A stretch of 50,467 nt of DNA, taken from assembly GCA_017651315.1 (NCBI GenBank), contig JAGCDE010000054.1:1-50467 (forward strand). Direction: 5' to 3'. Source of the stretch: Bacteroidaceae bacterium (GTDB taxonomy: Bacteria > Bacteroidota > Bacteroidia > Bacteroidales > Bacteroidaceae). Each line of letters begins with the position of its first letter. Positions within the stretch are counted from its first letter, which is position 1. Both the position numbers and the translations under genes were made by a program. Below the pieces are notes generated by a model. That model did no database searches. It saw nothing but the letters and a program-made list of their open reading frames with translations, and had not been told where the DNA came from. Of the stretch, positions 16,844 through 49,484 are shown piece after piece.

Positions 16844-16886
16844 CAACCGTCACAGCCTCCGTTAACCAAATAATCAGAACAGATTC

Positions 16887-26070: not shown

Positions 26071-26099
26071 GTACTAAAGTGGTATGAAGTAATTGGGTG

Positions 26100-26107
26100 C
26101 AAAGATA
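26100..26107 (-). promoter_or_regulatory. -7 box (TATCTTTG) for paaK-ACT
   Basis: Exact TAnnTTTG on the minus strand, 29 bases before the paaK start codon. Confidence 0.5.
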
Positions 26108-26124
26108 ATGCAAGCCGAGAGGAG

Positions 26125-26150
26125 AAAAAAGCAAGTTTACTTGTTTTTTT
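26125..26150 (-). terminator. Terminator of the NRPS operon
   Basis: A6-GCAAG-TTTA-CTTG-T7: a short stem extended by A and T runs, 39 bases after the MATE stop codon, with a T-run in either direction. It separates the NRPS operon from paaK. Confidence 0.65.
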
Positions 26151-26189
26151 CTTCCGAGGCGAAGCTTGTCTTATCAAAAGATAATGCAA

Positions 26190-27506
26190 TTATACTTTTA
26201 CCTGTCGTTTTTTTGTCAATATGTGAAGCACAACGATAACCGCAATCTCAATGGAATAGGCTATGAGGTAGCTGTACCATAGCAGATGCGGCGCAGTCCG
26301 TGAAACCACCCACAAGACAGGTATGACCGTAAGCGACAGCGCGAACGAAATGAACAAAGCCATTTTATGCCAGCCATATAGCTTGTAAACTATCATCACC
26401 GCATATATGTAGCAGAACGGGATGAAACTGAGCGCGAATATCCGGAGGGCATGGATGGTCTCGCTCTCCATTTCAGGAGAGTCCGCTCCGAAAAGTCCGG
26501 CGATTGCCTGCGGATACAACCATACAAACAGACAGGTTATAATCATGGCAATAGTGATGAAACGGAATGCCTTGATCATTACGAACCGGAAAGACTCCTT
26601 GTCCTCCTTGCCAATCTGTATGGCACCCAATGTCTGGAGAGTCCGGCACGTGCCTGCAAGGAAAAGATTGTAAATCTGTAACAGATTCATGCAGACGGCA
26701 AATACAAATATGCCTATGCGTCCCGATGTTACGAGGACAATCCTGTTGGCTGAAAACAACAGAACGGTAAGACATACCGAAGCTACAGCAAGAGGTGCGC
26801 CCTGTGATATAATGTTACCCCATTCGGGAGCATCATGCTGGAAGGAGAAATGAAGATGGTTGTCTTTGTTGCGGAAATGAAGGCACATGATGGCAATGCC
26901 TGCCAGATGACCGGTAACGGTTGCAAGGGACGAACCGGCAATGCCCCAGCCGAACGCCTGGATGAATACAAGATCCATACTGAGGTTCAGAATGTTATCC
27001 GCAAGAACTGCAACCGATGCAAGACGAGGGCTGCCATCCACGCTTATCATTATACTGATGGCCCACATCATCAGATATGAAGGGGCACCGAGCAGCATGG
27101 GATGCAGATAATCTGTAGTGGGAACCAGGAGATTCACGTCGCTGCATAACAGACGTCCTGCCGCCATCGGGAAAAGCAATCCTATAAAAGTGAACAGGAT
27201 GCCGATAAACAGGTTAATTGTAAAGGACTGGGTATAAATATATCTGACGCGACGCAAGTCTTTTTTGCCTAAGGCGAAACCAACAAGCATGCTTGCCCCT
27301 GAGGCGGTAATCATACTCAGGGTAAACAGCAGTTGAACTACCGGTTTTGAAAGGTTTATGGCACTGACTCCGTCGGGGCCGATAAGCTTTCCCACAATTA
27401 TTCCATCGACTACGTTACCCAGGCAACCTGAGAGAGAAATAAGGATGGATGACCAGATGAACCGTCTGAATTGTGCTGTCAGTTCTGAACGCTCCTTGTT
27501 GTCCAT
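26190..27506 (-). CDS. MATE-family efflux transporter, last gene of NRPS operon
   Basis: A 438-residue polytopic membrane protein with about 12 hydrophobic segments in two similar halves. FRRFIWSSILISLSGCLGNV, VDGIIVGKLIGPDGVSAINL and ASGASMLVGFALGKKDLRRV match the N-terminal half of MATE (NorM/DinF-like) drug-sodium or drug-proton antiporters. It starts 15 bases after the stop of the adenylate-forming ligase. As the last gene of an operon with an NRPS it is the natural candidate exporter of the peptide product across the inner membrane. Confidence 0.9.
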   Translation of the reverse strand: MDNKERSELTAQFRRFIWSSILISLSGCLGNVVDGIIVGKLIGPDGVSAINLSKPVVQLLFTLSMITASGASMLVGFALGKKDLRRVRYIYTQSFTINLFIGILFTFIGLLFPMAAGRLLCSDVNLLVPTTDYLHPMLLGAPSYLMMWAISIMISVDGSPRLASVAVLADNILNLSMDLVFIQAFGWGIAGSSLATVTGHLAGIAIMCLHFRNKDNHLHFSFQHDAPEWGNIISQGAPLAVASVCLTVLLFSANRIVLVTSGRIGIFVFAVCMNLLQIYNLFLAGTCRTLQTLGAIQIGKEDKESFRFVMIKAFRFITIAMIITCLFVWLYPQAIAGLFGADSPEMESETIHALRIFALSFIPFCYIYAVMIVYKLYGWHKMALFISFALSLTVIPVLWVVSRTAPHLLWYSYLIAYSIEIAVIVVLHILTKKRQVKV

Positions 27507-27521
27507 TGTACTGTTCTTTGT

Positions 27522-28871
27522 CTATAGCTTTATGTAAATTGGTATCTTGCCACCACGCCTGTTAGGGATAAACGGCTTGTCTGACCACACCAGATTGGCA
27601 TCGGGACATCCCTGGCTTGAAAGGAAAGCCTTTAGGTGGGCGCATAGACTGTCCATCACCTTGGCTTTATCAGCACTTGTATTGCATAAGGCACGCACTT
27701 CCAATGTGTCATCACTTGTCTGGACGAACTGATAGCGGATTACATCCGGCCACACTTCAGTTTCAGAGAGCAGTCCAATCACACCGAATGTCTTGCCACA
27801 GATAGTGTACATGTCAAATCTCCTGCCCCGGATTTCCATTCGCGGCAGCGGACAACAGTCTGAAGAATCCCGGTGCAGACGAATTACGTCGCTGACATAA
27901 TAGCGGATAATGGGCTGTACATAGTTGCTTAAGTCGGTCACCAGGACGCCTTCCGACCAGTCATTACTGTTTTGTACAGGCTGCATGTTCCTGTCAACAG
28001 GCTCAATGATAACCCAGTCATCATTTACATGCAGGTGCGGACAGTTGTGGGTCATCGCTATCTCGCCCCCCTCTGTCATGCAGTAGTTGTTGGCCACAGG
28101 ACACTTGAATGCATCCTTCAGTAGATAGTAGTTGGATTCTGACAGCATCTCGCTCGAGGTTGCAAGATGTTTCAGGTTAAGGTGTAACTTTCCAGCCTGC
28201 TGTTCCAACGCCAGCTGTACAATCATTGACGGATATCCCGCCATGGTCTCCGGCTGGAAATCATTCAACTGGTCAACAATATGGTCAACGCTATCGAGTA
28301 CTGAAACGCCTAACAGGTTATGGGCACTCTCGGGATGGGCCGCCTTCATGCGCAGGAAAGCGCCGTAACTGGAAGCTCCGTTGGACAGGTGGATGACACT
28401 GGCCCGCTTGTGCTTTGATATGTCAAGCACATCCATATCAACATTCCCAAAGAGCCGTTGGGCAATCAGCTGACTGTGAATCTTGTTGTGATAGTCGTCG
28501 CGCACCATTGGCAACGGGTTACCCGTGGAGCCCGATGTTCTCAGTGCCGTATATTCGCCTAAGAACAGACTTTGGTCCTTTGACGCGTCACGGGCCACAT
28601 AATCAAGCACGTCCTGCAGATGTATGCGGCGGTCTGTCACCCACTCGTCATAGTGCTCCAGAAGCGTCTTCTTTTCCGTGACGGGAAGATCAGTCAACCT
28701 GAAATCATTCTTGATGCCAGCGTAAAGAGCGGCAAAATATGGGGAATGGGTTTTCACGTAACCCACAAGTTCATGCAACCTTTCCTGTTGCAGTGCAAGA
28801 CGTTCAGCTGCCGGAAGAGCAGCCCCTTCGGCCACAAGCCGTTTTGCATTTTCAAGTTCAATAGTCTTCAT
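27522..28871 (-). CDS. CapK/PaaK-type adenylate-forming ligase in NRPS operon
   Basis: A 449-residue protein of the PaaK/CapK (coenzyme F390 synthetase-like) group. It has the P-loop-like LRTSGSTGNPLPMVRDD (about 110-126), NNYCMTEGGEIAM in place of the YG.TE motif, and YYVSDVIRLH with the adenosine-binding Asp. The C-terminus (KPFIPNRRGGKIPIYIKL) lacks the standard GKxKR lysine context of PaaK. It starts 24 bases after the NRPS stop. No separate carrier protein is seen, so it may make an acyl- or aryl-CoA or -AMP used by the first C domain of the NRPS; alternatively it could modify the product. Substrate unknown. Confidence 0.8.
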   Translation of the reverse strand: MKTIELENAKRLVAEGAALPAAERLALQQERLHELVGYVKTHSPYFAALYAGIKNDFRLTDLPVTEKKTLLEHYDEWVTDRRIHLQDVLDYVARDASKDQSLFLGEYTALRTSGSTGNPLPMVRDDYHNKIHSQLIAQRLFGNVDMDVLDISKHKRASVIHLSNGASSYGAFLRMKAAHPESAHNLLGVSVLDSVDHIVDQLNDFQPETMAGYPSMIVQLALEQQAGKLHLNLKHLATSSEMLSESNYYLLKDAFKCPVANNYCMTEGGEIAMTHNCPHLHVNDDWVIIEPVDRNMQPVQNSNDWSEGVLVTDLSNYVQPIIRYYVSDVIRLHRDSSDCCPLPRMEIRGRRFDMYTICGKTFGVIGLLSETEVWPDVIRYQFVQTSDDTLEVRALCNTSADKAKVMDSLCAHLKAFLSSQGCPDANLVWSDKPFIPNRRGGKIPIYIKL

Positions 28872-28895
28872 GTTAGTTTGTTTTTTATGTCGCTG

Positions 28896-31800
28896 TCAAT
28901 CAAAAAAGCCCAGACCGTTGATGGCGGTCAACATACGTTCGATATAGTCCCATGAGGTGGGAGAGAATGCGAATCCAAGACGGTAGAGCACCTGTGTGGT
29001 ATATTCATTGTCCCGGCTTACCTCGGTTGTAATATGTCCGTGCGCCATATCCTTATATGCGAGCAGAGATGCCATTATCTTAGCATTCTGCGGGTCTGCC
29101 GCCGCTTTATCCATCGCTTGCCGGAACTCTTCCTGCTCCACGAACCGGATGCCGTTCCCGACAGTTGAAAGTGCGGAGAGCACGTCACCTAACAACTGCA
29201 TGTGGATGTTGTATGGATGGAACACCGTACATTCCTGTGGTGTGGTTGCCAATAGGATTATGGCGCGACTCACCTCGTTGACCGGCGAGAACTCCACGCG
29301 CATGTCACGTAAGCTGTAGGGGCAGCAGCCTATCATGTTATAGACCTTGATGCGCCCCATGGATGAGTTGGTCCCGAAATTGACCTGGAATTCACCATCG
29401 GTGGAACGCGCCGACAGGTTACCAACACGCATGATCTTGGCATTGAGACCGTGGCGGGCCACAGCTTCAAGTATTATACGCTCGGCCATGAACTTAGAGT
29501 GGATATACTTGTTGCCAAGATACTGCCCCATATACAACCTTTGTTCGGTGAAGACATCGCCTTGCTCTTTTCCTGCCCATAAACCACGAGTACTTGCTGT
29601 AGAGACATGAACAAGGCGGGCTCCAGTCCTGATGCAGAAATCCACACAATGCCGGGCTCCGCCAACGTTCACGTCCTCAATCCCGGAACCCTCGGAGAAG
29701 TGCTTGACGACGGCTGCGCAGTTGAACACGGTATCTATCCTTCCATCCACGCTGATCTCCTTTGTCACATCACCTGGGATGATATGCAGACGTTTACCGA
29801 ACAGTTCTTCATAAGTATTGTCGAAATAGTAGAACAGCATGGTCTTCAGGCGTTTCAGCGCATCGTTTCCATCCTTGCCGCGTATCAGGCAATAGATATT
29901 CGGGGCATCGCTGTCTATCAGTTCTTTAAGGATATGGATTCCCAGGAAACCTGTGGCTCCTGTCAGCAGGACATTGCCTATACTCTGACGTTCTCCCTTG
30001 CGGAAATTGTCAAGGGTGTTGCGCTTGAGCAAGGCATCAATGCCTGTATAGTCATAGCCCTCCACCTCGTCATCCCTGAGAGCGTCATCCTTGACTTCGG
30101 TACCAGTTATGAGGCTCGCCAGCAGTCTGGGGGTAGGATTGGCAAACACATCCCCGTATGCCACGTGCATTCCTGCCTTGTCGGCTTCAATGATGATGCG
30201 GGTGACCACGAGCGATGTCCCTCCGAGTTCAAAGAAGTTGTCGGTGGCACCCACCTTGTCCATCTGCAGGATGTCGGCAAAAATTTCACAGAACTTGCGC
30301 TCCGTCCCGTTGGCTGGAGCCGTGTATGCCGATGTTATTGCAATCTGGGGGTCGGGCAGGGCTTTGACGTCAGTCTTGCCGTTGGGGGTCATCGGCATAG
30401 CCTTGAGTTGCAGGTAGGCCGTTGGCACCATGTACTGCGTCAGACTCTTTGATATTTCAGCCTTGAGGGCATCGGGCGCAATTTCGCGGTCGGCGGTATA
30501 ATAGGCACAGAGGTGCTCCTTGTCATTGATCTTGCGGATAATGATAACCACCTTCTTCATACCTTCCACCTTGAGCATCACGTTCTCTATCTCACCCGGT
30601 TCTATACGCAAGCCACGGAGCTTGATCTGATGGTCCGTACGTCCGAGAATGACCACATTGCCGTCGGGCAGCCATTTGGCATAGTCACCGGACCTGTAGA
30701 TGCGTATCTGAGTGCTCTTGTCATCACGGACGGGACAATAGTCTATGAAACTTTCACGTGTCTTCTCTTCAAGGTTGTTATAGCCGCGTGCAACGCCACG
30801 GCCTCCGATGTACAGTTCACCGACAACACCGACAGGCAGTTCGTTGCCGTCAGGGTCAACAATGAATTCCTTCACGTTCAGCTGTGGCCTGCCCACTGTG
30901 ACCTGAGTGGCATGGGTGAGCTCGGCATTATTCGATGCAACCGTTATTTCCGTGGGACCGTAGCAGTTGAAGATTCGGGCTTTGGTGATGCCGCGCATAA
31001 GGGCAAGCAGCTGGTCTGGGAATTTCTCACCACCGGCACGGCAGATATCGACATGACTTATCGCCTTACAGAATTCTTCGCTGGTGAGCCATGTCTGCCA
31101 GCGTGACGGAGTACCTGACACCATGTTTATATGCTGGCTGTCGATAAGACGTGCAAGCTCAATCGGGTTGTTCGCCTGCTCTTCGGTGGCCAGAACGAGT
31201 GTCTTGCCGTTGTAGAAGGCCATGCCTATGTCCTGCAGTGCGGCATCGAACGATATTGTGGTCACGCTCAGCATACGCCGGGCATCGGTCATTACGGCGT
31301 TGGCGAACACATTGGCAGGATGTCCGTACAGATAGTTGCAGATTCCCTCATGACGCAGCATTACACCCTTTGGACGGCCTGTGGAGCCGCTGGTGTAGAT
31401 AAGATAGGCAAGATCATCGGGGGTTATCGACAACTGGAATCTTTCAGCCGGCAACCCGGAACCGATAAGGTCCTCTACATCAATAGCCTTGCCTGATGGC
31501 AGAGAATCCATGCGGTCGGCCGTAGTGATGATAAAATTCGCTTCACTGTCCTCAAGAATCAGTCTTATGCGGTCGGCAGGATATCCGGGGTCGCAAGGAA
31601 TATATGCGGCACCCGATCTCATCACACCGAACAGCGAGAGTATCAGACGGCTGGTCCTGGGTAAAAGCAGCGCTATACGGTCGCGTTCCTTCACACCGCG
31701 TCTGCGCAGTTCCGAGGCGATGCGGGCCGTTATCTCATCCATCTGTCTGTATGTGAACGTTCCGTCAATGGCAACCAGCGCCTCATGGCCGGGATCTGTC

Positions 31801-34800
31801 TTGGCAAAATGACATATACAATCATGGAAGAACCTGAATGGAGCATCACCCGTTGCAGTCTGGCGAATATGGTTCAGTTCCTCCTCCTGACCTGGGCTTA
31901 CAATTGACAACTGACGCACTTTGCCATCGGGTCGCTCCATCATAAGGTTGCTCACGGTAACGATGCTCTCGGCCAATGCACGGCCCAGCCTTGCGGAATA
32001 GAGCGAATCATCATATTGAACCACGACTCCGCGTGATTCTATCTTGATGTTTATCTTGAACTTGGGTGTATTCAGTTCAAGCAGTTCATGCCCGACGGCC
32101 TTCCCGCCGGTACTGTATTCCGACAACACGCCGACCTGATAGGCGTATGCAACAGATGGGCGGAAGCCATAGTCCGATGCAATGCGGGCAAACGGATAGT
32201 CCTCATGGCGGAGTGTCTGTTCAAAGGTGTCACTGGCCTTCTGAAGGAAACCGGTCACACTCACATCATCTATGTCTATACCGAGCGCAAGGGTGTTGAC
32301 GAACATACCTACGGTGTCGGCTATCTTCAGGTTACTGCGTCCGCTGCTAACTGTGCAGAGATAAACCTCACGGTTGTTGGTATATCGTGAAACAACGTAT
32401 GCTGTTGCGGCAAGGAACAGGTGGGCTGGTGTAATCCCGTGCCTGCGGCAGAAATCTGTCGCCTTGTCAAAGTCAGGCATACATACAGACTCGCCGATGA
32501 ATCCTTGTACCGATAAATCCTTCTTATGAAGGTCGGCGGGTATCTCGCTGGCTCCCTCGCAGGTCTTCAGCTTTTCGGCAAAGAACTGTCGGGCCTCAAG
32601 GAACTCACCGGTCTCCCGGGCCGATTGCTGGTCGGCCACAAAATCCAGATATGTGTATGATTCCTTCTCTATCCCGTGACCTTCGAGCGCACTGCATATT
32701 TGACGTATGAACAGGTCGGCCGATCCTCCGTCAAAGACAAGGTGATGAATATCCATAAGCAGATGGACCCCGCTTTCCGTCTTTACTATCTCAAACCGGT
32801 ACAGAGGTGCTTTCTGCAGGTTGAACGGACGCACGAAATCGTTCTTGTAGGAGGCCAGCTGTCCGTCTGTCATTTCACTGATGATACCGCCGGCTCCGTC
32901 ACGGAATGAAATGGTGACACAGTCATCGGTAGTCTGTACGATGCTGTTGTCCTGAGTGGCGAAGTGAACGCTGAGTCCGGGATGACTCATAACAACCTTT
33001 TCAACCGCATCGGCCAGTCTGCCCACATCGGTCCCTTGTGGGAAGTGAAGGAGGTATGGGATGTTGTAAAGTGTTGATGTAGGATTCTTTATACACTCAA
33101 AATAGACACCGGTCTGGGCGTATGAGAGCGGAACTGTCTTTAATCGTGAATCATCGGGCAAGCCAGAAGTATCCTTTGCGGCAGGATTAATGCTCCGGGA
33201 GCCGGAATGGACGTTGGAAGTATCAGGATTATCTCCCGGACCTTGATCCAACAGTCCTTTCAGTATTTCGTTCTCAATGCTCTGCAATGTGGCTGTCTTT
33301 GAAAGTGATCTGGCATCAAGGGTGACATTGAAACGCTTCTGTATCTGAACGGCCAGCTTGATGGCGGTTATGGAAGTCAGTCCTGCATAGCCAAGAACGG
33401 TGGTAATGTCAAAATCGTGGTTGTTCACTATGTCCGCGATTATCCTGAATAGTTCCTCCTCCAGCACATTCATAGGCGCGTTTACGCCTCCTTCGCCCTT
33501 CTGGGGGCTTTTCTTCTCAGGTCTTGGCAAAGCTTTCCTGTTCACCTTCTGGTTCTGGTTGAGCGGAATCCTGTCTATCTGCATAGTCACCGCAGGAACC
33601 ATGTACGGCGGCTTCCGGTCAAGGATGAAATTGTTGAGTGCTTCAATGTCAGTCTCGTTGTCACTGACTATATAGGCTGCTATGAATTTGCCAGCTCCAC
33701 CTTCCTCGTCGAAGGCCTGCACGGTGGCATCCTTTATGCCCGGGAACTCGCGGATGACAGCTTCCACCTCCTTCAGCTCAATACGGAAACCGCGTATCTT
33801 TACCTGTCCGTCACGACGGCCGATGAACTGGATATTGCCATCCGGAAGATAACGCACGATATCACCGGAGCGATAGACCCGCTGATATTTCCTGTCATCA
33901 GTGAAAGGATTGGATATATAAACCTCCGCCGTCTTTTCCGGACGGTTCAGATAGCCTTGGCTCACCTGAGGACCGCTAACCCACAGCTCGCCTGACGCCC
34001 CTGCTGGCAGACGGTGACCTTGTCCGTCAACGACATACAGGCGTACGTTGTCAAGGGGCTTTCCAATAGGTATCTCCTTCATCTTCTTTTCCGTTGGATA
34101 GATAGTGGTGAAGACGGTACACTCTGTAGGGCCATACCCGTTGTAGAACCTATATCCCTTAGGCGGTGCTAATGATGCCAGCTTCTCGCCACCTGTAGAG
34201 AGGTGTAACAGCGAATGGTTCTCTATACTCGTGGCAAACTGATATCCTACCTGAGTGGTCATGAAAGAGTGGGTGATATGGTTCGCCTCGAAGTAACCGT
34301 TCAATGACACCAGGTCCAGACGTAGCTCCTCAGGGATGATGTGAACCGTAGCTCCACAGGTCAGGGCAGGGTACAAGTCCATCATGCAGGCATCGAAGCC
34401 ATAGCTGGCATAGGCTGCCACATTATGTTCCGGCTGCAGGTCAAAATAACGCTGATACCAGTGGCAGAAGCACACCAGGTTGCCATGCGTCAGCCGGCAT
34501 CCCTTCGGCACGCCTGTAGAGCCCGAAGTGTATAACAGGATGAACAGGCTATCCGGATCAGGACCTTCCGGTAATGTCCCGGGCATTGGCAATTGCTTCA
34601 GGTCCCTGGTCAGCAGAACGTCACCATGGTATTCATCCACGATGGAGCATAGCTCCTCGTCGGCAATCAGGAGCTTCGCCCCCGCATCCTGCATCATAAA
34701 ATTCAGGCGCTCTTTGGGATAAGTGGGGTCGAGCGGCTGGTAGGCACAGCCTGCCTTCAGCACACCGAGAGAGGCTATTGCCATCCATTCGCAGCGGGGA

Positions 34801-36266: not shown

Positions 36267-36284
36267 GTCAATTCTGTTTTTGTT

Positions 36285-37643: not shown

Positions 37644-37646
37644 CTC

Positions 37647-38411
37647 CTAGAACTCAAGATTATAGGTCAGTTCACCTTTAGTTAACATGAATGTCCTGTC
37701 CAGGGTATATACGCCTCCCTTGTCAACACTGTAGTAGCGGACCTGCATGGTCTCGCCCTCCTGCTTTCCATATACCGTGAAAGACTGGCCATAAAGGCCC
37801 ATGCCGCGGCATTCATCGCCTGAGAACACTGCCACCATGTCATCGACTGTCACGTTGAAAGGCATTGTCGCGGGCATCTTAACAGTCAGCTCGCATTGTG
37901 CCGGATACTTGGAGCTCCCGCTCAGCAGCGGCGGCACGAAGTCAATGTCAAAGCCGTACGTGTAACCCGACGCGAAGTTGTTCCTGCCCAGTATGGAGAA
38001 TACCTGGTGCAGCCGGGCGCTATAGTAGCTCAGGGTCAGGAACAACTCTGTGGTGGAGCTGTTGCCGCGTATCTTCAGAAGGAAATAGACACCTCCGTCA
38101 TCGCTCACGTTGCGGACATCGGACAGGGCACGGCACTCGTCTCCGATGAACACCGCCATGAGGTCATCGTCCGATGACAGGGCGGCCAGCTCATCCTCAA
38201 GGCGCAGCCTGATGAACACCGAGCTCTCGAACTGTGACGGGTCGGGGGCGGTCCATGCCGGAACGCCCTCGTCCGAGGTCAAATCGACTTGCCAGTCCGG
38301 TCTCACCGATACGGCGAACGTGCTGGACGTTTCCTCCTTCTCGTCATGCCTGCAACCCCACGCGAGCACGAGGGCTGCCGCTATCATCATTGTATTTAAA
38401 AGCGTTTTCAT
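37647..38411 (-). CDS. Lipoprotein with two 'GDECR' domains, coupled to the giant protein
   Basis: A 254-residue lipoprotein (lipobox LAWGC, Cys20). It has two copies of a ~90-residue beta-rich domain: the first contains DDLMAVFIGDECRA (residues 82-95), the second DDMVAVFSGDECRG (190-203). The same domain occurs at least twice in the 3292-residue protein encoded just upstream (see there). The start codon overlaps the stop of that gene (ATGA), so the two are translated together. This suggests a membrane-anchored partner or cap for the giant protein. No known function for the domain. Confidence 0.75.
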   Translation of the reverse strand: MKTLLNTMMIAAALVLAWGCRHDEKEETSSTFAVSVRPDWQVDLTSDEGVPAWTAPDPSQFESSVFIRLRLEDELAALSSDDDLMAVFIGDECRALSDVRNVSDDGGVYFLLKIRGNSSTTELFLTLSYYSARLHQVFSILGRNNFASGYTYGFDIDFVPPLLSGSSKYPAQCELTVKMPATMPFNVTVDDMVAVFSGDECRGMGLYGQSFTVYGKQEGETMQVRYYSVDKGGVYTLDRTFMLTKGELTYNLEF

Positions 38412-41400
38412 CTTACCACCTGTTTTTTACCGTTATGAATATAGACACCGCTCTCAACCGGCTTGCCCTGAAGCTTTATGCCATGCAGAGTGTACCAGCC
38501 GTCATCCCACAGACCGTCGGTCTTGGAGAACACGATGTCGGTAGGCTCTGCAGGTGAACCGCTTATGGCATCCGCACTGTATGTCATGAACTCCCATGCA
38601 GTAGCTATCACCTCACCGTCGCGCTCAATGGCAAGCGTGACAGGTGTCTCGCGGTCACCGCTTATGCTCAGGAAGAACAGGGTGGAGGGCTCTGCCTCCT
38701 TTCCCTTGAACTCCAGGGCTGTTGCCTCACCGCACACGTCGCCGTCACTGTAGGCCACCAGGCGGTCCCCGTCCTCAAGCTCTATGCCCTTGACCGTTGC
38801 CACCATGGTCATTGTCGTGCCTCTCTGGACTGCGCGTGGCGGGGCATCCTTGGCGCCGTCAATGAACGTGGCACCAGGCTCATAGTACGGATAGCGGAAC
38901 TTCACTGTGGTGGAGCCGTTGCGTTTGAGCATATAGCCTTCGCCGGGCTTGAGGTACTTGAGCGAACCCGTCCATTCACGGGTGCCGTTGGCTCCCTCGG
39001 TGAACATGGCGAACTCGTTCTGGCTCTTGATAAGGTCACCGTCGCTGGCGTTGCTCCAGTAGTCGGCAAGCGCGGTAGCTATGGGCAGGTTCACCATCGG
39101 AGTGTAGCCAATGCCGTTCCAACCCTTCTTCAGGGTGATGGTACGGTCGGCCTCATCCGTCAGGGACGATCCCGTTATCTCCACATCGAACGACCTGCCC
39201 ACCTTGACGCGGTAGCATTCCGACGGCAGGATGGCATATTCCTCCGACATCTTGCTGTTGGTCTCCCAATGGCCGTTGCCAGTGAAAGTTATGGTCACGT
39301 CATCATTGTCGTTGGTCAGTATGTCGCCCTTCTTCCATGGGATGATGGAGTATCCTGCGGTTTTAAGCAGATTCCGGACATAATCGTTATAGACATTGAA
39401 CGATATCCAGTTCCATCCCTTCTCGAAGTGTATCTTCTGGACATACTCGTTATAGGCCTGCAGGACGAGCGGCTCCTTCACGGTACCGACTATATCCTGG
39501 TCGCTGAAATACACACTCTCAGTGGTCTGGAGCGTCATGGTCTTGCCCGAAGAATAGTGCCACAGCCTGAAATGCAGCGAAGGATGAATATTCGATGCAA
39601 GGCTGTCATAGACGGTCAGATAGGCCAATGCCTGTCCTAACTGCTCGTTGTAGTCGATATGGGCGCTCCCACGGCATTCACCGTTGCTGTCAAACGCCGC
39701 CACGATGTCGTGTGTGTCAGTGACTATGTCATTGCCTATCAGCACTTGCGCCACGACACTCATCGAGTACCGCTTCATGGACGGGCTGACTTTCCATTCC
39801 GGCTCCTCGCCCTTGACGGTCAGGTTCATCGCCACCGGTTCGGACAGCCCGTCCTCCGAAGTCAGGTAAATCAGCTCGTCGTATGTACCCACGTTCAGGT
39901 CCTCACTGACATAGAAGGTGACCTGCTGCTCCTCCAACGGCTCGATTATGTCACTCCACTTGCTCACAGTCATCCATTGCGGCAGGTTATCAATCGTATA
40001 TGTATGCGGCGTTCCGCTCTCATTCACTATGCGCAGTGTGAATTCGCCCCTCTCGCCGGCGGAAAGCTCCTGGTGAAGGGTCTTGTCGCTCCAGCGAAGC
40101 GGGTTACGGTCCACAAAGAAGCTTACGGTGAAAGGCGATGCCATGTAGTTGCCGTTCAGGTCAGGTATGTCGGTCAGCGTCACATATACATTGCGCTTGT
40201 TGATGCGTGAGTCCGCCTCGTTGATGTTCAGCATAATCTGGTTGTCACGGCCCACAAAGTTGAAATTGAGGTTACGCAGCTCCCTGAACATCTGTACCGG
40301 AGCACCCATATCCGTGTCTATCAGAGCCATGATATCCCCGACAGGATCCGCGAATACGGTGTCGCGTCGTTCCGTCTCCTTGCCGTCCATGTCAAGCGGT
40401 ATCACGTTGCTCAGGGCGAACGGGGTCAGCACCATCTGGTTCTGCGCGTCACGCTCCTGCCTGCTGAAACTCATGTAGGTTATCAACCCCTTCTCAGTGC
40501 CTATCGGCGACTTCACGGAATACCGCTTGATGAGGCTCAGCGGCAGGGCCTGCCCGAACAGGCAGAGCTCGTCGATGTTACCGGTCAGGGCATTTGCCTG
40601 ATGCTTGACATCGGCTCCCGAAGCCCCGTCCACATAATATACCATGTTGCCTATGAAGAAGTCATCGCCTGTCATTCCGCCTAATGTGTCGGTGCGGAAT
40701 GTCTGCCGCAGTGTACGGTCAATATAGATGTTAGCCGTGTTGTGCGCCCGGTTCACAGTCATGGCGTAGTGGTGCCATGTATCATCGCTGTAGTCACCCG
40801 GAATGACCAGCTCCATCCCGTTAGAGCGGTATTTGAGCGATGCCCCCTCGAAACCTATGAAGAACTTCCCGGCCGCATCCACATCGGTGCTGTAACCTGC
40901 ACCGTTGCTTATCAGCGCGCCACGTCCGACGGCATCGGTCTTGAACCAGAACATGAGGGTGTAGTCACTCTCCGCCGAGCGGCTGAACCGCTCAGGCCTC
41001 AGCTTCAGGCCATTGACCTGCACACCGTCAATCTCCTTGCTGAGGCTGCCGTCCAAGTGCAGCGATAATCCCTGTGGCAGTGACCATGTGGCTCCTGTCA
41101 GGGCGAGGTGAGCGCCTTGGGCCATGTCCATTGCCATATCCCCCTCGCCGTCGTTCATCGGGTAGTAGTCCGAAAGCCCCATCTCGTAGCCGGTCAGGGT
41201 GCGGTTGGCGTACAGGTCCAGAAGCGTCTGGTCCATGGCGCGGTTCCAGATACGTGCCTCCAACATGCGGCCTGAGTAGTGACGGCGTTTGCTTATGTCG
41301 CTCTCGTCGGTGGCGCCGAATATAAGCTGCCCGTAGCCGCTGTAGCTTATGCTGTCCTTAGAGCCTATCAACGAGTTGTTGTAGAGCCGCAACTGCCTCC

Positions 41401-44400
41401 TCTCATGGTCAATCACCATTGCCACATGCTGGAAGCCGTCATTGCCGATCGGCTTGGAGCTCGTGCATTCGGCATTACCTACAATCGCCTTCAGCTTGAG
41501 GTCCTTTGTCAGCCACAGCTGGAGAATGTTGCCGTCGGCGTCGTGCGAGAATATCGGCATGTCCTTGCCGGTATCGTCAGGCTTTATCATCAGTTCTATA
41601 GTCACGCTCTTGTCGGTGTAGTTGCGGCGGGCGTCGCTCTCGGCAAATCCCGTGCCGCTGAAGAGCAGTGACGGCTCGGCGGCCAGGCCGGTCTCATTGG
41701 TCTCGCCCACGACCTCGAAGTTAGTCACCTTGCTCAGATAGTTGTACTCCACATTCTCCGAGAAGCTGAAGGTGATGTCATCGCCGGCACCCAGGATGCC
41801 GTTCCTCGGCGCGGCCTGGCCGAACAGCTGCGGACGGCGTGTATCCTTGATTCCGCCCAGCACCTTCGACGCATTGGTCAGGTACTCGTTGCCGTTCCTC
41901 GTGAACAGGACCGCGCGCAGGTCGTAAGCCTTCTCCATCTCGAAGCCCTCACCGTAGAAACGGGTGCTGATGTAACCGTTCCCGGGTATCATCTCCTTGG
42001 TACCGGAAGCCAGCTTGTAGAGCGAGTCATTGGCATAGAAGGAGCACAGGTTGGTCCAGTAGTCGTCACCGCGCGTGGATTCCTTGTACTGGAACTCTAT
42101 GTGGTCAAAGTTCTTCTGGTTCTTGTCATAGCCGCTTATCACCACCGGCATGAAGTAGCCCCGGCTGTCCTGTGCGGCATCCGTGTTCATGATCCACTTG
42201 TCACCAGGGGTGGAGATGGTCACAGGACCGGCCGTATGCAGGTAATGCACCGACAAGGCCACCTGTTGCACAGTGTTGAAGTCATTGAGCGATGCAAGGT
42301 TGACATGCAGGTCCTCATAGTCGAAGTCCTCGCTCGCATAGACCTCAAGCGTCTTCTCTGTCACCTTCCCGGGCACGATCATCACGGTACGGGCATCGCC
42401 GGTCAGAGGCATACCGTCTATGAGCAGCTTGGCACCCTTCGGGTTTGAACTCTCATCCAGATAGATTCCGTAATAGTTATATGTTCCTTCAGGCTGCTCG
42501 CTCTCGTTGGCCAAGTATAGCTTGAAGCGTGCCGGCTCGCCATACGGCACTCCGCTCACGCTCTGCTTGTCAACGGTGATGACCGGGTTCTCTATCTTCT
42601 TGGTCCGCTCGTCAAGCACCGTACCGGGCTTATAGACTATTGTCTTGCGCTCACCCTCCCACGGACGGCATGTGGCACCGCCACGGGTACGATACACAAA
42701 ACTCCGGGCATACTGGAAATCATCGGAATCGGCGTGGCGTCCAAGATAGAGGCTGTCTAAGCCTACCTGTTGCATGTAATTCCAGTTAACGAATATATTC
42801 ATGGCATCGTCCGATTTGAGCTCACTGTTGTCGGTCTTGGTCTTGACACGATACACATCGAAGTCCAAATGGCTCTTGTTGTCCATCCTTATGCTGAAGC
42901 TCTCCATACGGTTGTACTGGCTCGATTCGGTATGCCTTGGCGTGACATTGTAACTGATTACGGGAGTAACCTTTATCCCGAAGTGCCATCCGGGTAAATC
43001 AATGGTCGTATTGTTGGATTGCTCTTTGTCAACTACATCTGAACTGCTTGGTCCGTTATTGAATGATTTGCTGAGGATACTGGTTAAGCCACTGGCGGCA
43101 GGTCCGAAAAGTCCTGCCATCCATCCGAATGCTGTTGCAGTATTACCAGGATCATCGTCATCAAAGTATTGGTCTGTCAGTGCAGAGATACCTAACGGCC
43201 ATATTGTGGTCGTACTGGAGGAATAGTCACTCGTGAAGTTTTCACTGTATGAGGTTGCGGCCCCGCCGTCAATATCGAAATTCCTGACAAGCTCCTTGGC
43301 TTCCAGTTTCTCCTTCTCATTCTGCCCTATGAATCCCGTCCAGGCTACGATGCTCTGACACAGTTCGTTGATCCTGTCCGGTGTTCGTTTAATATCATCC
43401 TTTGAGAATGTTGAAGGGTAGATAATTTCATAATAATCCTTGGCCTTGTCTGAGTCCTTGAATCCTACATCATTGATATCGGCAGTAAGCCTATAGACAG
43501 GTTGCTTAGTGGCATCGGCCTGTGCCTGTGCGGCTGCCTTGTCGCCGGTGAACAGCATGCTCATGCACTGTTCAGCAAGTTCAGGCAGTAACTGCTTCAC
43601 GATATACTGCTGGGAGTGGTTGAATACGGATGTGACTGTGTCACCGAAAGCCACCACTTCATCGCGAACTAAATGCATGATCTGGCCGTTGTAATTGCCT
43701 TGGGCTATCTCCACCATCCGGCCGGCTTCCACCTGTCCCTGTACTTGCCGGTACATGGAGTCGGGTATAGCGCGTACGGCAACGGCAGGCTTGGCGAAAA
43801 TATTGTGTTCCATGCCGATATAGACATCGGCATCAGCTCCCACCATTGTGGAACCGCTGCTTGTGGATATGTCTTCATTCGCGGTTATAGTGTAGTTGAA
43901 TGCACGTTCACCGCTGCCGGAGAAGACAATATCAAGTGAAAAATTGAAATTGGTTCCTGACTGATGATTAAAACCGGTGACCACGCCAACACCCATACCT
44001 GCAAACGCACCGTTGAACATAGAGAATCCGGTACCGATGGAGAAGTCAAGTTTGGCACCGGCAGCCCAAGAGAGATCCATCTTATAGGCATACTTAAGCG
44101 TGGAACCCTTCTTGATTGTGGCCGATGAACCGCCGCCTGGCGGGTCACGCAGGATATCCACAAGCAACGGCCGCTTTACGCTCAGTATGTCCTTAGCGCC
44201 ATCCTTGGCTTTTACTGACAGCACGTAGGCGCGGAGAGGTTCTGCCTCATGCTTGACACCGTCCATCTCAAGGGTCCATGTCACGTTGCGCAGAGCCTGC
44301 TCGCCGGTAAGGGAGTAGGGGGTCTGTCCGGCTGTCAGATAGTATTGCGCCTCGCCGTTCCCGTCAAGCTGCACTTCGTCGCGATGGGTGGTGCTGACCA

Positions 44401-47400
44401 TCTGGTTCTGCACGGTCACTGTACCGCCCTTGAGCTTCACTATGTCCATCTTGCCCTTGAGCGGGTCATTGTTCCAGTAATAGACCTCGCGGGCCGACAG
44501 CTTGACAGGATACTGACGGTCAGTGCTGAACACAGGGTACCCGAATGTATAGACAGTCTCTATGGAATCGGCGCGTCCCTCCGGCCAGCTGTCCGGGGAG
44601 TTCAGGTATGAATCCTTCAGCTCGTAATATGCCAGCGGCACGGTAGCCTTGTTACCGGCCAGATCCTGGGCAATGTAGTTCTTTTCACCGAAATAGTCGA
44701 ACTTGTCATAACTCTCCTGGAAGTAGGAGAGTTCAACAGGAGAGTGGTAAATCCGGTCATAACGGGCATTATATTCAGTTGTCACCTTGGTAACGGTATT
44801 CCCATCTACCGTAGTCCATGTGCCGTAGAGCACATCCTGGTGCAGTGTGAGCGAATCGGTAATGTCAAGCACATCGCCGGTCTTGCCGGGCTGGAAGAGA
44901 GTGGGGTAGCCCTCGGCTGTAATCTGCTGCACCTTCCACTTGACCGGCGGCAGCATGACGCTGTACTCGCCCGTAACCTCGTCGGGCCATATTTCTATGC
45001 GATGCCGTGTGGTATGCATCCGGGTCTTGTGCCTGCCCTTGCTGTCGGTATTGAAACTCTCGTCACGCTCCGTAAGCGAATGGTCCTGCAGGTCATAGAC
45101 CAGCCATGAGGTGTTGTCGCCCTCAAGCGTCATGACAATTTTGATATCCTCGCCAAGGTTGTTCCTTGAGAGCGATACCCCGAGAGGCAGCTCGCCCTGG
45201 ACATGACCGCCTGTCACACGACCGATGAGCTTGACGCGGGTATCGTCGAACAGGTATATGCCGGCCACGCCGTCAGTGCCGGTGTCGGCAGTGAACTTGC
45301 CAAGCTTGCTGTCAAACGTATGTCCCTCCTTCACAGCCTGGACAGTCACCTTGCCCTGTCCTTTCAGTACATAGAACGAGAACTCACCCTTGCTGTCGGT
45401 CGTCACAGGCTTGCCGCCCGAACGCACCTCGTATGTGCCGCCGTCGGACCTGTTCATGGTGAAGCTTACATCCTTGACCGGGATGCTGGTACCGGAATAA
45501 AGCACCGTTCCTGTCAGCTTGCAGCCCTTCACCACGGTAAATACCACGTCATTCCGGATATTTGAACTGTTGGCTGTCCCGAATGAGAACACCAGACCGC
45601 CCTGGCAGTCGGCCTGCAGGTCATCGTTGCTAACCCCGCTGATTGTCGCCATGTAGCTTCCGTTCTGGCCGCTCTGCCCGTAGTAGGCAAGTTCATCGGC
45701 CTTGAAATAGCCGCTCTCGTCGGTCGTCACGGTCTTTCTCGTGCCACTCTTGCCGGTCTCGTCACCATTGGGCGATATGCTGACAGTGATGCCCGGGATA
45801 CCTGTCCCGTCGGCGAACCTCACATATCCATCCACCGAACCGGTCTGTATGCAGTAACCCTCCAAAGGAGTGGTCTCCACATAGTGCAAACCCTCACAAT
45901 CCACCACCGAGCGCACCTTATAGATATATTTATAGACCGGTGACACTGTGCGGTCCTCCCATTCGGTCTGCTGAAGACTTGCGACAACCGTGAAAGTGCT
46001 GTCCGGCTGGCCCTCAATCTTGCGCAACACCTCAAAGTAATCCACAGGTTTGGGGTACTCTTCACCATCCTCCAAGACTAATGACCACTTGAGCTGTACC
46101 GATGTGGGGCGTGTGACCGTGCTGAGAGAGTTCTGCTCTACAGCTCCGGGAGAGTTGTAATAAGTGTCTGTCTGTGAACATTCTGTCTCGGAGTGTGTAA
46201 CCCTTTCCCTAATGAATCCCGGAACGGATGTCATCTCGATTTCCGAGATAGCCAGACAGTCGCTTCCAAAATTCTCTGACACTTCAAGACGGTAGTACCG
46301 ATAGGATTTTCCTCCGGCATCAAATTTGTAGTTATAAGGTTTGCTGTTGGAATTCTCCATTCGGGAATCCTCCACTTCGGCAATTAATGTCCCGCTGCCT
46401 ATATCCCCGCCTGGAGCCGAAGTACCATACAACTTCCAATGCTTTGGGTTACGTCCCTGGAAGGTATAGCTGTCGTTGCCTGTGTAGATTGTAATTGTGC
46501 CCGGAATGTTATTTATATCAGAGCTGACTCCAACCTTGAAATCGACATACCAGACCCCGTTATTCCTTTTGTCAAGTCCTGTGCACCATTTGTTATCAAG
46601 CCTTCCGTCAAACAAAGCATCAAATGTTTCATCATCATTGAAGCCTTCACTTCCAGAGAGTCCTGACAACTCATACTTGGTACCGGGATCATAGACCTGG
46701 CTTTTTAATGCTAACGGGGAGTCCTTGCTATCCACCACAAGCAGGAAACTGTAATTGACGCAGGAGCGGTTCACCGGAACAGTCGCTGTCCCGGAAATAA
46801 TCTGTTCATGTGTAAGCACCTGTTCAATACGGTCTATCTCCTTGATGTTGTCCCTGTCTTTCAGAACCGAAACAATCTTCATTTCAGCGCGGTCATCCCA
46901 GATGCCGGCCTCTTCATAGTCCCAAGTAAGCGTCACCTCATAATTACCCTTCTGTTCACGCGTCTGCTGCAGAGCCTTGAACGAAACAGGATTGAGCAGT
47001 GTCAGCGATGTGCCTTCAGAGGTGCATTCCGCCTTGGTCGGGTTGTTGTCCCATCCCCATAGCATCTGTGCCGATGCCCTGCATATACGGTAGCGGATAT
47101 TGGGCTTGTCGGTGTATTTGTCCAGATGTTCCGGTTGCAGGTTGCCGACCATAGTCTCGTCAATAAATTCGTAATCAGTCACGTCAGGATCATAGATTAC
47201 AGGGCATGGCAAGTCCTCGAAATCCTCGTCCTTGCCGGACAATGAACGCTGTATGCTGAACATGTCGCCCTCGAACACGTCAGGCCACTCGTTGTGGTCG
47301 GTCTGCCATGTAAGCCTGACCGTGCCGTCCTGCTGCAATCCGGCATTGAAATCCTTCGGTGCGTGGACCATTGGCAGTTTGCCCTCCCTGACCTCGGAAC

Positions 47401-48286
47401 TGACCCATCCGTAATTGCTGGATGGCTCGTTTTCATGGGCATCATCCCATGTGGCGGTCATCACCCTGACATTGACCGAGACATCCTCGTAGGCCGAAGT
47501 GGGATTGTACTTTATGAACCCGTTGTATTCATCGACAGTGATATCCGACTGTTCCAGGTTGACCTTCGAGCCGCCACTCCGGAACTCGGCACCGCTTATG
47601 GGCTTGTCACTTGAGAAAGCAAGCTGCAACTTTGGCTCCTCAGTGCTCGGTACGGGATCATAGATATTTACATTGACCGAAAAATCATCAAACGTGATCT
47701 CACCGAATTCCTTCTGGTAATCGGTCGTTTCGTAGGTAAAAGTTGTCGCCAGCCATTGTCCGGTAACCAGTCTGCCTTTTACATAGAACCTGTATGTCTT
47801 GCCTGCAAATCTTGGAGGATAGTACCAGTCCATTTCCAACCAACAATTATAAATACTCTCCTTTTTACAATTGTGTTCCTTAGCTACACCTGGAATGAGC
47901 CATTTGGGTGCGCCGTCGGTACCATTGGTCATAAATAGCACCGACTCGTCAGACAGAAGGTTGATTCCAGAATATTCTCCGTATGAATATGGAATAACTC
48001 TATTTAAATTACTCAAATAGGGATTTATATTGAAACAGGCAATCCAGGTGCCGTTCTCATCTATCACACCTATTTCAGCATCAGACATTAATCTTGTATC
48101 TTTGAACAACTGCATCTTGAAATGCACACGACCAGACTCCGGCCCGGAAAACTGGAACGCCTCAGCGGGATTGTCATAGATGCCGTTGTCGGCCACTATT
48201 TTTTGAGGCATTAAGTATAACGCTATCAGCGTCATCAACAGTGTGGCCTTCCATCGGCACACACACCTTTGTCGATTGGTGTCCAT
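38408..48286 (-). CDS. Giant secreted multidomain protein (3292 aa), first gene of NRPS operon
   Basis: Signal peptide in the first ~33 residues (after a basic stretch, LLMTLIALYLMPQKIVA). Recognisable parts, approximate: FN3-like 300-430 and 720-820; F5/8 type C (discoidin)-like 550-680; CarboxypepD_reg-like 820, 925 and 1019 (SVDGYVRFADGTGIPGITVS); a Gly-rich hydrophobic stretch 1410-1445 (FSIGTGFSMFNGAFAGMGVG); two LamG-like regions 2220-2380 and 2440-2580 (TIELMIKPDDT, TLMFWFKTDAVG); a Cys domain at Cys2871 (IVAAFDSNGECRG) and again near 3185 (LVAYSDGDVCGEA); paired 'KGWNWISFN' and 'KKGWNGIGY' segments about 2960 and 3065. The tail GVYIHNGKKQVVR is the kind found on type IX-secreted or surface-anchored Bacteroidales proteins. 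Likely an adhesive or scaffold protein at the cell surface; no catalytic domain seen. Confidence 0.85.
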   Translation of the reverse strand: MDTNRQRCVCRWKATLLMTLIALYLMPQKIVADNGIYDNPAEAFQFSGPESGRVHFKMQLFKDTRLMSDAEIGVIDENGTWIACFNINPYLSNLNRVIPYSYGEYSGINLLSDESVLFMTNGTDGAPKWLIPGVAKEHNCKKESIYNCWLEMDWYYPPRFAGKTYRFYVKGRLVTGQWLATTFTYETTDYQKEFGEITFDDFSVNVNIYDPVPSTEEPKLQLAFSSDKPISGAEFRSGGSKVNLEQSDITVDEYNGFIKYNPTSAYEDVSVNVRVMTATWDDAHENEPSSNYGWVSSEVREGKLPMVHAPKDFNAGLQQDGTVRLTWQTDHNEWPDVFEGDMFSIQRSLSGKDEDFEDLPCPVIYDPDVTDYEFIDETMVGNLQPEHLDKYTDKPNIRYRICRASAQMLWGWDNNPTKAECTSEGTSLTLLNPVSFKALQQTREQKGNYEVTLTWDYEEAGIWDDRAEMKIVSVLKDRDNIKEIDRIEQVLTHEQIISGTATVPVNRSCVNYSFLLVVDSKDSPLALKSQVYDPGTKYELSGLSGSEGFNDDETFDALFDGRLDNKWCTGLDKRNNGVWYVDFKVGVSSDINNIPGTITIYTGNDSYTFQGRNPKHWKLYGTSAPGGDIGSGTLIAEVEDSRMENSNSKPYNYKFDAGGKSYRYYRLEVSENFGSDCLAISEIEMTSVPGFIRERVTHSETECSQTDTYYNSPGAVEQNSLSTVTRPTSVQLKWSLVLEDGEEYPKPVDYFEVLRKIEGQPDSTFTVVASLQQTEWEDRTVSPVYKYIYKVRSVVDCEGLHYVETTPLEGYCIQTGSVDGYVRFADGTGIPGITVSISPNGDETGKSGTRKTVTTDESGYFKADELAYYGQSGQNGSYMATISGVSNDDLQADCQGGLVFSFGTANSSNIRNDVVFTVVKGCKLTGTVLYSGTSIPVKDVSFTMNRSDGGTYEVRSGGKPVTTDSKGEFSFYVLKGQGKVTVQAVKEGHTFDSKLGKFTADTGTDGVAGIYLFDDTRVKLIGRVTGGHVQGELPLGVSLSRNNLGEDIKIVMTLEGDNTSWLVYDLQDHSLTERDESFNTDSKGRHKTRMHTTRHRIEIWPDEVTGEYSVMLPPVKWKVQQITAEGYPTLFQPGKTGDVLDITDSLTLHQDVLYGTWTTVDGNTVTKVTTEYNARYDRIYHSPVELSYFQESYDKFDYFGEKNYIAQDLAGNKATVPLAYYELKDSYLNSPDSWPEGRADSIETVYTFGYPVFSTDRQYPVKLSAREVYYWNNDPLKGKMDIVKLKGGTVTVQNQMVSTTHRDEVQLDGNGEAQYYLTAGQTPYSLTGEQALRNVTWTLEMDGVKHEAEPLRAYVLSVKAKDGAKDILSVKRPLLVDILRDPPGGGSSATIKKGSTLKYAYKMDLSWAAGAKLDFSIGTGFSMFNGAFAGMGVGVVTGFNHQSGTNFNFSLDIVFSGSGERAFNYTITANEDISTSSGSTMVGADADVYIGMEHNIFAKPAVAVRAIPDSMYRQVQGQVEAGRMVEIAQGNYNGQIMHLVRDEVVAFGDTVTSVFNHSQQYIVKQLLPELAEQCMSMLFTGDKAAAQAQADATKQPVYRLTADINDVGFKDSDKAKDYYEIIYPSTFSKDDIKRTPDRINELCQSIVAWTGFIGQNEKEKLEAKELVRNFDIDGGAATSYSENFTSDYSSSTTTIWPLGISALTDQYFDDDDPGNTATAFGWMAGLFGPAASGLTSILSKSFNNGPSSSDVVDKEQSNNTTIDLPGWHFGIKVTPVISYNVTPRHTESSQYNRMESFSIRMDNKSHLDFDVYRVKTKTDNSELKSDDAMNIFVNWNYMQQVGLDSLYLGRHADSDDFQYARSFVYRTRGGATCRPWEGERKTIVYKPGTVLDERTKKIENPVITVDKQSVSGVPYGEPARFKLYLANESEQPEGTYNYYGIYLDESSNPKGAKLLIDGMPLTGDARTVMIVPGKVTEKTLEVYASEDFDYEDLHVNLASLNDFNTVQQVALSVHYLHTAGPVTISTPGDKWIMNTDAAQDSRGYFMPVVISGYDKNQKNFDHIEFQYKESTRGDDYWTNLCSFYANDSLYKLASGTKEMIPGNGYISTRFYGEGFEMEKAYDLRAVLFTRNGNEYLTNASKVLGGIKDTRRPQLFGQAAPRNGILGAGDDITFSFSENVEYNYLSKVTNFEVVGETNETGLAAEPSLLFSGTGFAESDARRNYTDKSVTIELMIKPDDTGKDMPIFSHDADGNILQLWLTKDLKLKAIVGNAECTSSKPIGNDGFQHVAMVIDHERRQLRLYNNSLIGSKDSISYSGYGQLIFGATDESDISKRRHYSGRMLEARIWNRAMDQTLLDLYANRTLTGYEMGLSDYYPMNDGEGDMAMDMAQGAHLALTGATWSLPQGLSLHLDGSLSKEIDGVQVNGLKLRPERFSRSAESDYTLMFWFKTDAVGRGALISNGAGYSTDVDAAGKFFIGFEGASLKYRSNGMELVIPGDYSDDTWHHYAMTVNRAHNTANIYIDRTLRQTFRTDTLGGMTGDDFFIGNMVYYVDGASGADVKHQANALTGNIDELCLFGQALPLSLIKRYSVKSPIGTEKGLITYMSFSRQERDAQNQMVLTPFALSNVIPLDMDGKETERRDTVFADPVGDIMALIDTDMGAPVQMFRELRNLNFNFVGRDNQIMLNINEADSRINKRNVYVTLTDIPDLNGNYMASPFTVSFFVDRNPLRWSDKTLHQELSAGERGEFTLRIVNESGTPHTYTIDNLPQWMTVSKWSDIIEPLEEQQVTFYVSEDLNVGTYDELIYLTSEDGLSEPVAMNLTVKGEEPEWKVSPSMKRYSMSVVAQVLIGNDIVTDTHDIVAAFDSNGECRGSAHIDYNEQLGQALAYLTVYDSLASNIHPSLHFRLWHYSSGKTMTLQTTESVYFSDQDIVGTVKEPLVLQAYNEYVQKIHFEKGWNWISFNVYNDYVRNLLKTAGYSIIPWKKGDILTNDNDDVTITFTGNGHWETNSKMSEEYAILPSECYRVKVGRSFDVEITGSSLTDEADRTITLKKGWNGIGYTPMVNLPIATALADYWSNASDGDLIKSQNEFAMFTEGANGTREWTGSLKYLKPGEGYMLKRNGSTTVKFRYPYYEPGATFIDGAKDAPPRAVQRGTTMTMVATVKGIELEDGDRLVAYSDGDVCGEATALEFKGKEAEPSTLFFLSISGDRETPVTLAIERDGEVIATAWEFMTYSADAISGSPAEPTDIVFSKTDGLWDDGWYTLHGIKLQGKPVESGVYIHNGKKQVVR

Positions 48287-48322
48287 AGGGTTATGTTTTT
48301 ATATCCACGTTAGTTTTGTTTC

Positions 48323-48354
48323 GCAAGTTAATACTTTATTGGAAAGTATTCAAA
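48323..48354 (-). promoter_or_regulatory. Promoter of the NRPS operon with palindrome in the spacer
   Basis: On the minus strand: TTTG (48354-48351), exactly 20 bases, then TAACTTGC (48330-48323; six of eight matches to TAnnTTTG by position, a weak -7). The spacer is almost entirely the inverted repeat AATACTTT-5-AAAGTATT (48330-48350), an ideal place for a regulator. The giant gene starts 37 bases downstream. Confidence 0.45.
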
Positions 48355-48393
48355 AAAAAGCATAGGAGATTTCAACCAAATCATAATAACGAA

Positions 48394-48425
48394 GCCGGCA
48401 CATCAGAAATAACTGATGCACCGGC
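48394..48425 (-). terminator. Hairpin after upstream lipoprotein
   Basis: Thirteen-base arms GCCGGCACATCAG (48394-48406) and CTGATGCACCGGC (48413-48425) with two mismatches and a 6-base loop, 26 bases after the lipoprotein stop. No T-run, so a weak or factor-assisted terminator; it sits ahead of the NRPS operon promoter. Confidence 0.5.
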
Positions 48426-48451
48426 TGCCAAGATTATTGACACCTATGGTG

Positions 48452-48979: not shown

Positions 48980-49084
48980 AATAAAACACTTTGATATGCA
49001 TGGCAATAATACTGTTTTTTCTTTGAACGACCAAATATGGAGTTGCGGAATTGCGGAAAACGGATTTCGGGTGTTGGATAGAGA

Positions 49085-49116
49085 AATCCCAGGCGGGGTG
49101 ATTCCTGCCTGGGATT
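49085..49116 (-). terminator. Hairpin downstream of small peptide gene
   Basis: Perfect 10-base arms AATCCCAGGC (49085-49094) and GCCTGGGATT (49107-49116), 104 bases after the stop of the peptide gene and 105 bases before the lipoprotein start. Followed on the minus strand by TCTCT, so a moderately good terminator. Confidence 0.5.
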
Positions 49117-49220
49117 ATGACCTTTTTAGGGTGGGGGCTTGACATATAATGGCGGCATCAACCGTCAATAGTCAAGCGGTATGCTCTTTCGGCTTTTCGA
49201 TAACAGCCGGGGCTTAGAGC

Positions 49221-49367: not shown

Positions 49368-49431
49368 ATCTGTAATCGTTTAATCGTTATCTTATTTGTT
49401 CATTAATACTTTGTTTCTGAATGACTCCTGA

Positions 49432-49470: not shown

Positions 49471-49484
49471 CCACAGTCATATCA

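Follow-up and report, generated by a model that had tools for sequence, protein, structure and literature searches.

The window, meaning the whole stretch of DNA that was analysed (50,467 nucleotides), is one entire contig (C53) of the 59-contig genome of a Bacteroidaceae bacterium. Six genes on its minus strand, here called GIANT, LIPO, BARREL, NRPS, LIG and MATE, lie in a row between a terminator-like hairpin and the chromosomal gene paaK, as follows.

24769..26070, minus strand: paaK, the chromosomal gene bordering the block and the divergent neighbour of tsaD in sister genomes
26190..27506, minus strand: MATE, an exporter of 438 aa (Pfam MatE, 7.4e-26)
27522..28871, minus strand: LIG, a putative PaaK/F390-synthetase-like AMP-forming ligase of 449 aa (TIGR02304, 1.7e-27, under the cut-off)
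28896..36266, minus strand: NRPS, domain order C-A-T-C-A-T-R, 2456 aa (Pfam domains and motifs)
36285..37643, minus strand: BARREL, a predicted AlgE-like outer-membrane barrel of 452 aa with about 18 predicted strands (fold prediction)
37647..38411, minus strand: LIPO, a lipoprotein of 254 aa (signal peptide and Cys, read by eye)
38408..48286, minus strand: GIANT, a secreted protein of 3292 aa with two LamG stretches (ORF and Pfam)
48393..48426, minus strand: terminator-like hairpin of 14 pairs ahead of GIANT

An earlier sequence-only reading had described six minus-strand genes in tight succession, and this description was reproduced: all six ORFs were found again, and the re-measured intergenic distances are an overlap of 4 bases between GIANT and LIPO and gaps of 3 (LIPO/BARREL), 18 (BARREL/NRPS), 24 (NRPS/LIG) and 15 bases (LIG/MATE). 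With gaps of 3 to 24 bases a single transcript is likely, so that co-expression with GIANT would be genuine in this strain, provided the assembly is correct. GC3 declines from 0.73 in LIPO to 0.54 in MATE, a trend that is not decisive. Elsewhere in the window, a 48-residue ORF (49221-49367, minus strand) is flanked by the lipoprotein gene at 48452 and the repeat-protein gene at 49485, and two adjacent minus-strand genes (2547-4343 and 4565-6511) have N-terminal halves that look alike by eye, an apparent tandem duplication.

Scans gave no support to the proposal that these genes stand between one promoter and one terminator; a terminator-like hairpin precedes GIANT. That hairpin (48426-48393 on the minus strand) likely marks the end of the unit upstream of GIANT. 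The exact Bacteroides-type promoter pattern had 0 matches in the window. A terminator scan of positions 25950-29050 and 36100-49500 flagged none directly after MATE, where an A/T-rich hairpin can be read by eye; its totals of 2 and 11 terminator-like structures in the two regions, counted on both strands, are within one standard deviation of those from shuffled sequences (2.9 and 10.2).

The NRPS has the organization of a terminal-reductase dipeptide synthetase. Pfam matches reveal two C, two A and two T domains and one NAD_binding_4 reductase domain, with a C domain between the two A and T pairs and the R domain at the C terminus, and the motifs HHxxxDG (twice), LTSIT, GGTSL, GATGFLG and YxxxK, which we take to be condensation, carrier and reductase motifs, are intact. 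The best NCBIfam match is AusA (aureusimine synthetase), at 1094 bits against a cut-off of 2500; because this equivalog score falls below the cut-off, the protein is not an AusA, but it may function in a similar way. At the Stachelhaus pocket positions, set by eye, the two A domains read DAMFSGGVF and DAQSCACVA, and we know of no code that matches either string. Both strings are near-identical in the ten closest NRPSs, none of which has a giant in its available flank, so the type of product is not linked to the giant; a further seven NRPSs in the tree group described below have a different second string. LIG has a weak Pfam AMP-binding match, under the cut-off, and matches phenylacetate-CoA ligase among PDB sequences (1.6e-9). 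These similarities are those of a distant PaaK/F390-synthetase-like ligase, and the protein is a candidate supplier of acyl-CoA. It is an uncommon companion, standing beside the NRPS in only two of the 39 loci considered below, L097 (68%) and L070 (99%).

The product of this NRPS is perhaps an N-acyl dipeptide aldehyde, and the previously suggested role as a protease inhibitor is a fair guess based on domain order and the literature. Gut NRPSs that reportedly make dipeptide aldehydes or pyrazinones (said to be the subject of Guo 2017), the ruminopeptin system of Ruminococcus bromii and AusA of Staphylococcus share with it two modules and a terminal reductase. In contrast to these, the NRPS of the window starts with a C domain and has an AlgE-like barrel and a MATE exporter as neighbours, and its relatives are accompanied by partner-switch regulators. 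Ruminopeptin, dipeptide aldehydes and pyrazinones are treated in passages of PMC12327764 and PMC6694145.

The predicted fold of BARREL comprises about 18 strands and has AlgE as its best fold match. The Alginate_exp family (PF13372) is matched by 16 of 19 aligned BARREL family members, at best with 6.4e-13, the window protein itself giving no match at E 0.01; a BARREL profile likewise found nothing among PDB sequences at E 0.01. While the strand number and predicted fold resemble those of the alginate export porin AlgE, no alginate genes were noticed, and some distant BARREL homologs sit in other contexts. Homologs of 38-40% identity lie directly behind cytochrome c genes in two other genomes, at L182 (4121-9513) and L183 (4899-10390), the neighbour being identified as cytochrome c552 (nitrite reductase-type) by Pfam in L182 and by eye in L183, and a 27% homolog adjoins genes that read by eye as molybdate transport. 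The cytochrome c552 and molybdate-type contexts point to a general porin type that several operons have adopted. From its operon position and predicted AlgE-like fold, BARREL is the best candidate for outer-membrane passage of the NRPS product, a direction of transport that we infer.

A scan of GTDB genomes with the NRPS yielded 40 loci, 39 of which have an NRPS match above 200 bits and were tallied; flanks of at least 5 kb on both sides were available in only 15. Judging from record titles, many of these loci derive from the rumen or other ruminant gut and some from horse faeces, the source of others being unstated. A gene order recurs among them, RSB (a sensor phosphatase/kinase), STAS, BARREL, NRPS and MATE, with a phosphopantetheinyl transferase in some, so that the regulators and transferase named by the sequence-only reading as expected NRPS partners are in fact present in the relatives. 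Upstream sequence of 2.5 kb or more was available for 30 loci, of which 25 have STAS, 25 have RSB and 18 have a barrel match of at least 300 residues; in L084 and L088, only the C-terminal part of RSB is present. Ten loci keep STAS and have the barrel absent or reduced to a remnant (L078, L083, L084, L088, L089, L090, L091, L098, L105 and L107), which indicates that the barrel is not essential to the NRPS. Short C-terminal barrel stretches, probably remnants of lost barrels, lie between STAS and NRPS in L090 (304-474, 57 residues) and in L107 (9803-9928, 42 residues), the latter being one of the 30 loci. A transporter-like gene occupies the barrel slot between STAS and NRPS in L084 (8662-9996) and L088 (8628-9959); the L088 gene belongs to the SNF family of transporters by Pfam, its L084 counterpart being alike by eye only.

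The same association was apparent from the barrel side. BARREL matches occur in 53 of 349 family genomes, the genome of the window included, and of the 29 best-scoring loci from other genomes (flanks of up to 1.5 kb), 19 have an NRPS immediately following the barrel in the same orientation and 22 have STAS; in L061, the NRPS stands beside the barrel on the opposite strand, at a contig edge. On this comparative sequence evidence, BARREL-NRPS-(ligase)-MATE is the core of a recurrent operon, found mostly in rumen Bacteroidales and normally headed by RSB and STAS. Variants of the arrangement were also seen. L181 (G270:C93) carries RSB-STAS-BARREL and a transferase-like match at 12047-16583, with no NRPS in the 17 kb of sequence available, and L073 (18686-27296) and L080 (18721-27249) contain a further NRPS and MATE after the first pair.

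An NRPS tree of 34 rows, calculated in quick mode with no bootstrap and with long branches flagged, was derived from 37 rows by leaving out the giant ORF L085_10858 and two duplicates. The window falls in a group of 19 rows (SH-aLRT 92, not starred), nested among STAS-bearing relatives, and the smallest starred sets that contain it have 10 and 12 rows. Its 18 relatives in this group, 17 named loci and G057, include STAS in 18, RSB in 17, the barrel in 15, MATE in 16, the transferase in seven, LIG in one and GIANT or LIPO in none. The sole relative with no RSB, L105, has just 662 bases of upstream sequence. The MATE homologs beside the NRPS in the 16 relatives are 57-66% identical, the one in L100 being in two pieces. 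The nearest assembly by NRPS is G004, at 99% identity over the part of the NRPS present there, and the NRPS of L070 (RGIG8382, water buffalo rumen) is likewise 99% identical to that of the window.

The window thus combines barrel, NRPS and MATE in a single run of genes and departs from its relatives at the operon head: searches of the window for RSB, STAS and the transferase gave no match better than E 0.049. In G057, RSB is one protein with a PDC/dCache sensor, a SpoIIE phosphatase and an HATPase_c_2 domain, and STAS is a separate protein. These domains resemble those of the RsbU/RsbW/RsbV partner-switching regulators, homologs of which head most of the sampled operons; the window, in contrast, is without such regulators. 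Because RSB and STAS are missing, BARREL-NRPS-LIG-MATE is presumably read from the GIANT promoter. On another contig of the same genome (C8), an RSB paralog (48% over residues 339-736) was found together with a gene that looks STAS-like by eye.

GIANT and LIPO belong to a different context. The view of the giant as a LamG/discoidin-type protein held for LamG, Pfam finding two Laminin_G_3 stretches, and was not confirmed for discoidin, for which there was only a weak DUF5000 match (E 0.037). A GIANT part of 1221 residues has matches in 30 of 150 genomes, and LIPO in 26 of 150 genomes at E 0.001 and in 56 of 349 family genomes at E 1e-10, all counts including the genome of the window. Searches of Pfam and NCBIfam found no family for LIPO. 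In each of the 30 best-scoring LIPO loci from other genomes, LIPO is preceded on its own strand by the C-terminal portion of a giant, mostly within 150 bases, and none of the 30 has a barrel, NRPS or STAS in flanks of up to 1.5 kb. Eight larger LIPO neighbourhoods likewise contain a giant followed by the lipoprotein, with neither barrel nor NRPS adjacent. GIANT-LIPO is, from these comparisons, a recurrent surface-protein cassette in which LIPO is a partner of the giant and not of the NRPS.

Several further observations concern these two proteins. An NCBIfam search of GIANT for a Type IX sorting domain gave no match at E 0.01; SprA is present in the genome, over the cut-off. The idea that LIPO is a domain relative of the GIANT of the window was rejected (BLASTP E 1.2), and LIPO matches weakly inside some other giants. 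In L171 (G046:C8:104000-112000), weak MATE (26%) and C-domain (24%) matches lie at 2786-5802, about 10-13 kb downstream of LIPO and on the other strand, a loose echo of the pairing seen in the window.

The chromosomal setting of the block was compared in sister genomes, the paaK neighbourhood being retrieved for 10 of 37 genus genomes. In all nine with sequence past the paaK start, paaK divergently adjoins tsaD (identified by Pfam in one and by like N-termini in the others); in the tenth, G004, the contig stops at the paaK start. In the window, paaK is instead adjoined by the MATE gene and then the rest of the block. Because tsaD and paaK are adjacent in the nine sisters and apart here, the block is probably a lineage-specific insertion. 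The tsaD gene of this genome is located on C47, beside a PD-(D/E)XK family transposase gene and repeat-rich genes like those at the right end of the window; within L253 (G000:C47:30000-46996), this region, in which tsaD faces the PDDEXK_2 family transposase gene and the repeat-rich genes, spans 8369-16996. The end of C47 and the end of the window (repeat region 49485-50467) share 140 bases at 95%, members of the same repeat family, and the two contigs may be neighbours.

The sequence-only reading combined all six genes in one model of making, export and surface presentation. It is highly unlikely that they constitute one evolved system presenting a protease-inhibiting peptide aldehyde at the surface with, or in protection of, the giant. 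Tight spacing on a single strand is what such a system would show, and there are weak signs of co-occurrence, uncorrected for kinship: 13 genomes, the present one included, share barrel and LIPO where 8.5 are expected (53 and 56 genomes, assumed to be drawn from the same 349; P 0.057), and strong NRPS and giant matches, hand-counted from tables for 150 genomes, occur in nine genomes each, the present one excluded, with three shared (P 0.011, or 0.043 within the family). Linkage argues otherwise. In their available flanks, none of the 39 NRPS loci has LIPO and one has a giant homolog, which is not adjacent, lying in L085 about 2.7 kb downstream of the NRPS with intervening ORFs on both strands; none of the 29 best-scoring barrel loci from other genomes has GIANT or LIPO within 1.5 kb; and G057 and G073 each carry the NRPS operon on one contig and the giant-lipoprotein pair on another. 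With cross-linkage at 0/39, 0/30 and 0/29 in NRPS, LIPO and barrel loci, a single six-gene system was rejected, the pairing being absent from the related genomes sampled; the earlier reading had itself named absence from all related genomes as a refutation. Linkage of NRPS, MATE and AlgE-like barrel is conserved and supports the making and export part of that model; there is no such support for the idea that the product is delivered to the giant or tunes it, the giant and lipoprotein forming a separate cassette in 30 of 30 loci.

Two other explanations concern the LIPO/BARREL junction, which was found in one of 37 genus genomes, namely the assembly of the window. That the junction is an assembly error fusing two loci of a MAG seems rather improbable. 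Its restriction to this assembly, the division of the genome into 59 contigs and the fact that the near-identical G004 breaks within its NRPS and at the paaK start would all fit such an error, yet the LIPO and BARREL ORFs are both intact and on one strand with a 3-base spacer, and no repeat of at least 20 bases occurs when 36900-38400 is compared with itself. Recent selected rewiring, in which the surface cassette took the place of the sensor/STAS pair and production of the metabolite became tied to that of the giant in a new joint function, is also unlikely. The presence of STAS in 18 of 18 tree-group relatives and its absence here, together with the close fit at the junction, are consistent with this idea; against it, the arrangement is that of a single lineage, in which selected replacement and chance insertion are indistinguishable. 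We consider it probable that two independently recurrent modules, GIANT-LIPO and BARREL-NRPS-LIG-MATE, abut in the window, the second releasing and exporting its product as outlined below. The pairing of NRPS and giant is then probably due to chance or very recent, and no working link between giant and metabolite is needed.

In the pathway envisaged for the second module, the substrates and product of which we infer from domain order, motifs, linkage and predicted fold, LIG would charge an acid, or an acyl group would be drawn from the CoA or ACP pool of the cell. The first C domain would condense the acyl group with the first amino acid, after which the second module would add another, and reductive release by the R domain would give an N-acyl dipeptide aldehyde or alcohol. 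The product would then cross the inner membrane by way of MATE and the outer membrane through the AlgE-type barrel. In relatives, the sensor phosphatase/kinase and STAS would probably control the operon by partner switching. A more far-reaching interpretation, which is speculative and to which we assign a low likelihood, is that the operon forms a complete signalling circuit by itself in rumen Bacteroidales: a reduced acyl-dipeptide released via MATE and the AlgE-type channel would be sensed by the periplasmic dCache domain of the phosphatase, which would control the operon via STAS, and the window would have lost the sensing half, leaving the making and export half under the promoter of the giant.

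NRPS clusters number in the hundreds in rumen Bacteroidaceae, the consulted portion of one survey giving 934 among 8,160 rumen genomes (PMC8241843). In open-licence papers, which offer weak evidence of absence, neither a product or circuit for this NRPS type nor the recurrent combination of NRPS, AlgE-like barrel, MATE and partner switch in rumen Bacteroidales was found described. Terminal-reductase NRPSs, AlgE-like porins, MATE exporters and partner-switch regulators are each already known separately. The gene row of the window illustrates that a tight arrangement can comprise two unrelated modules, and its interest lies in the operon family rather than in the pairing of NRPS and giant. This family is open to testing, as it supplies candidates both for the export of one small molecule across the outer and inner membranes and for its sensor.
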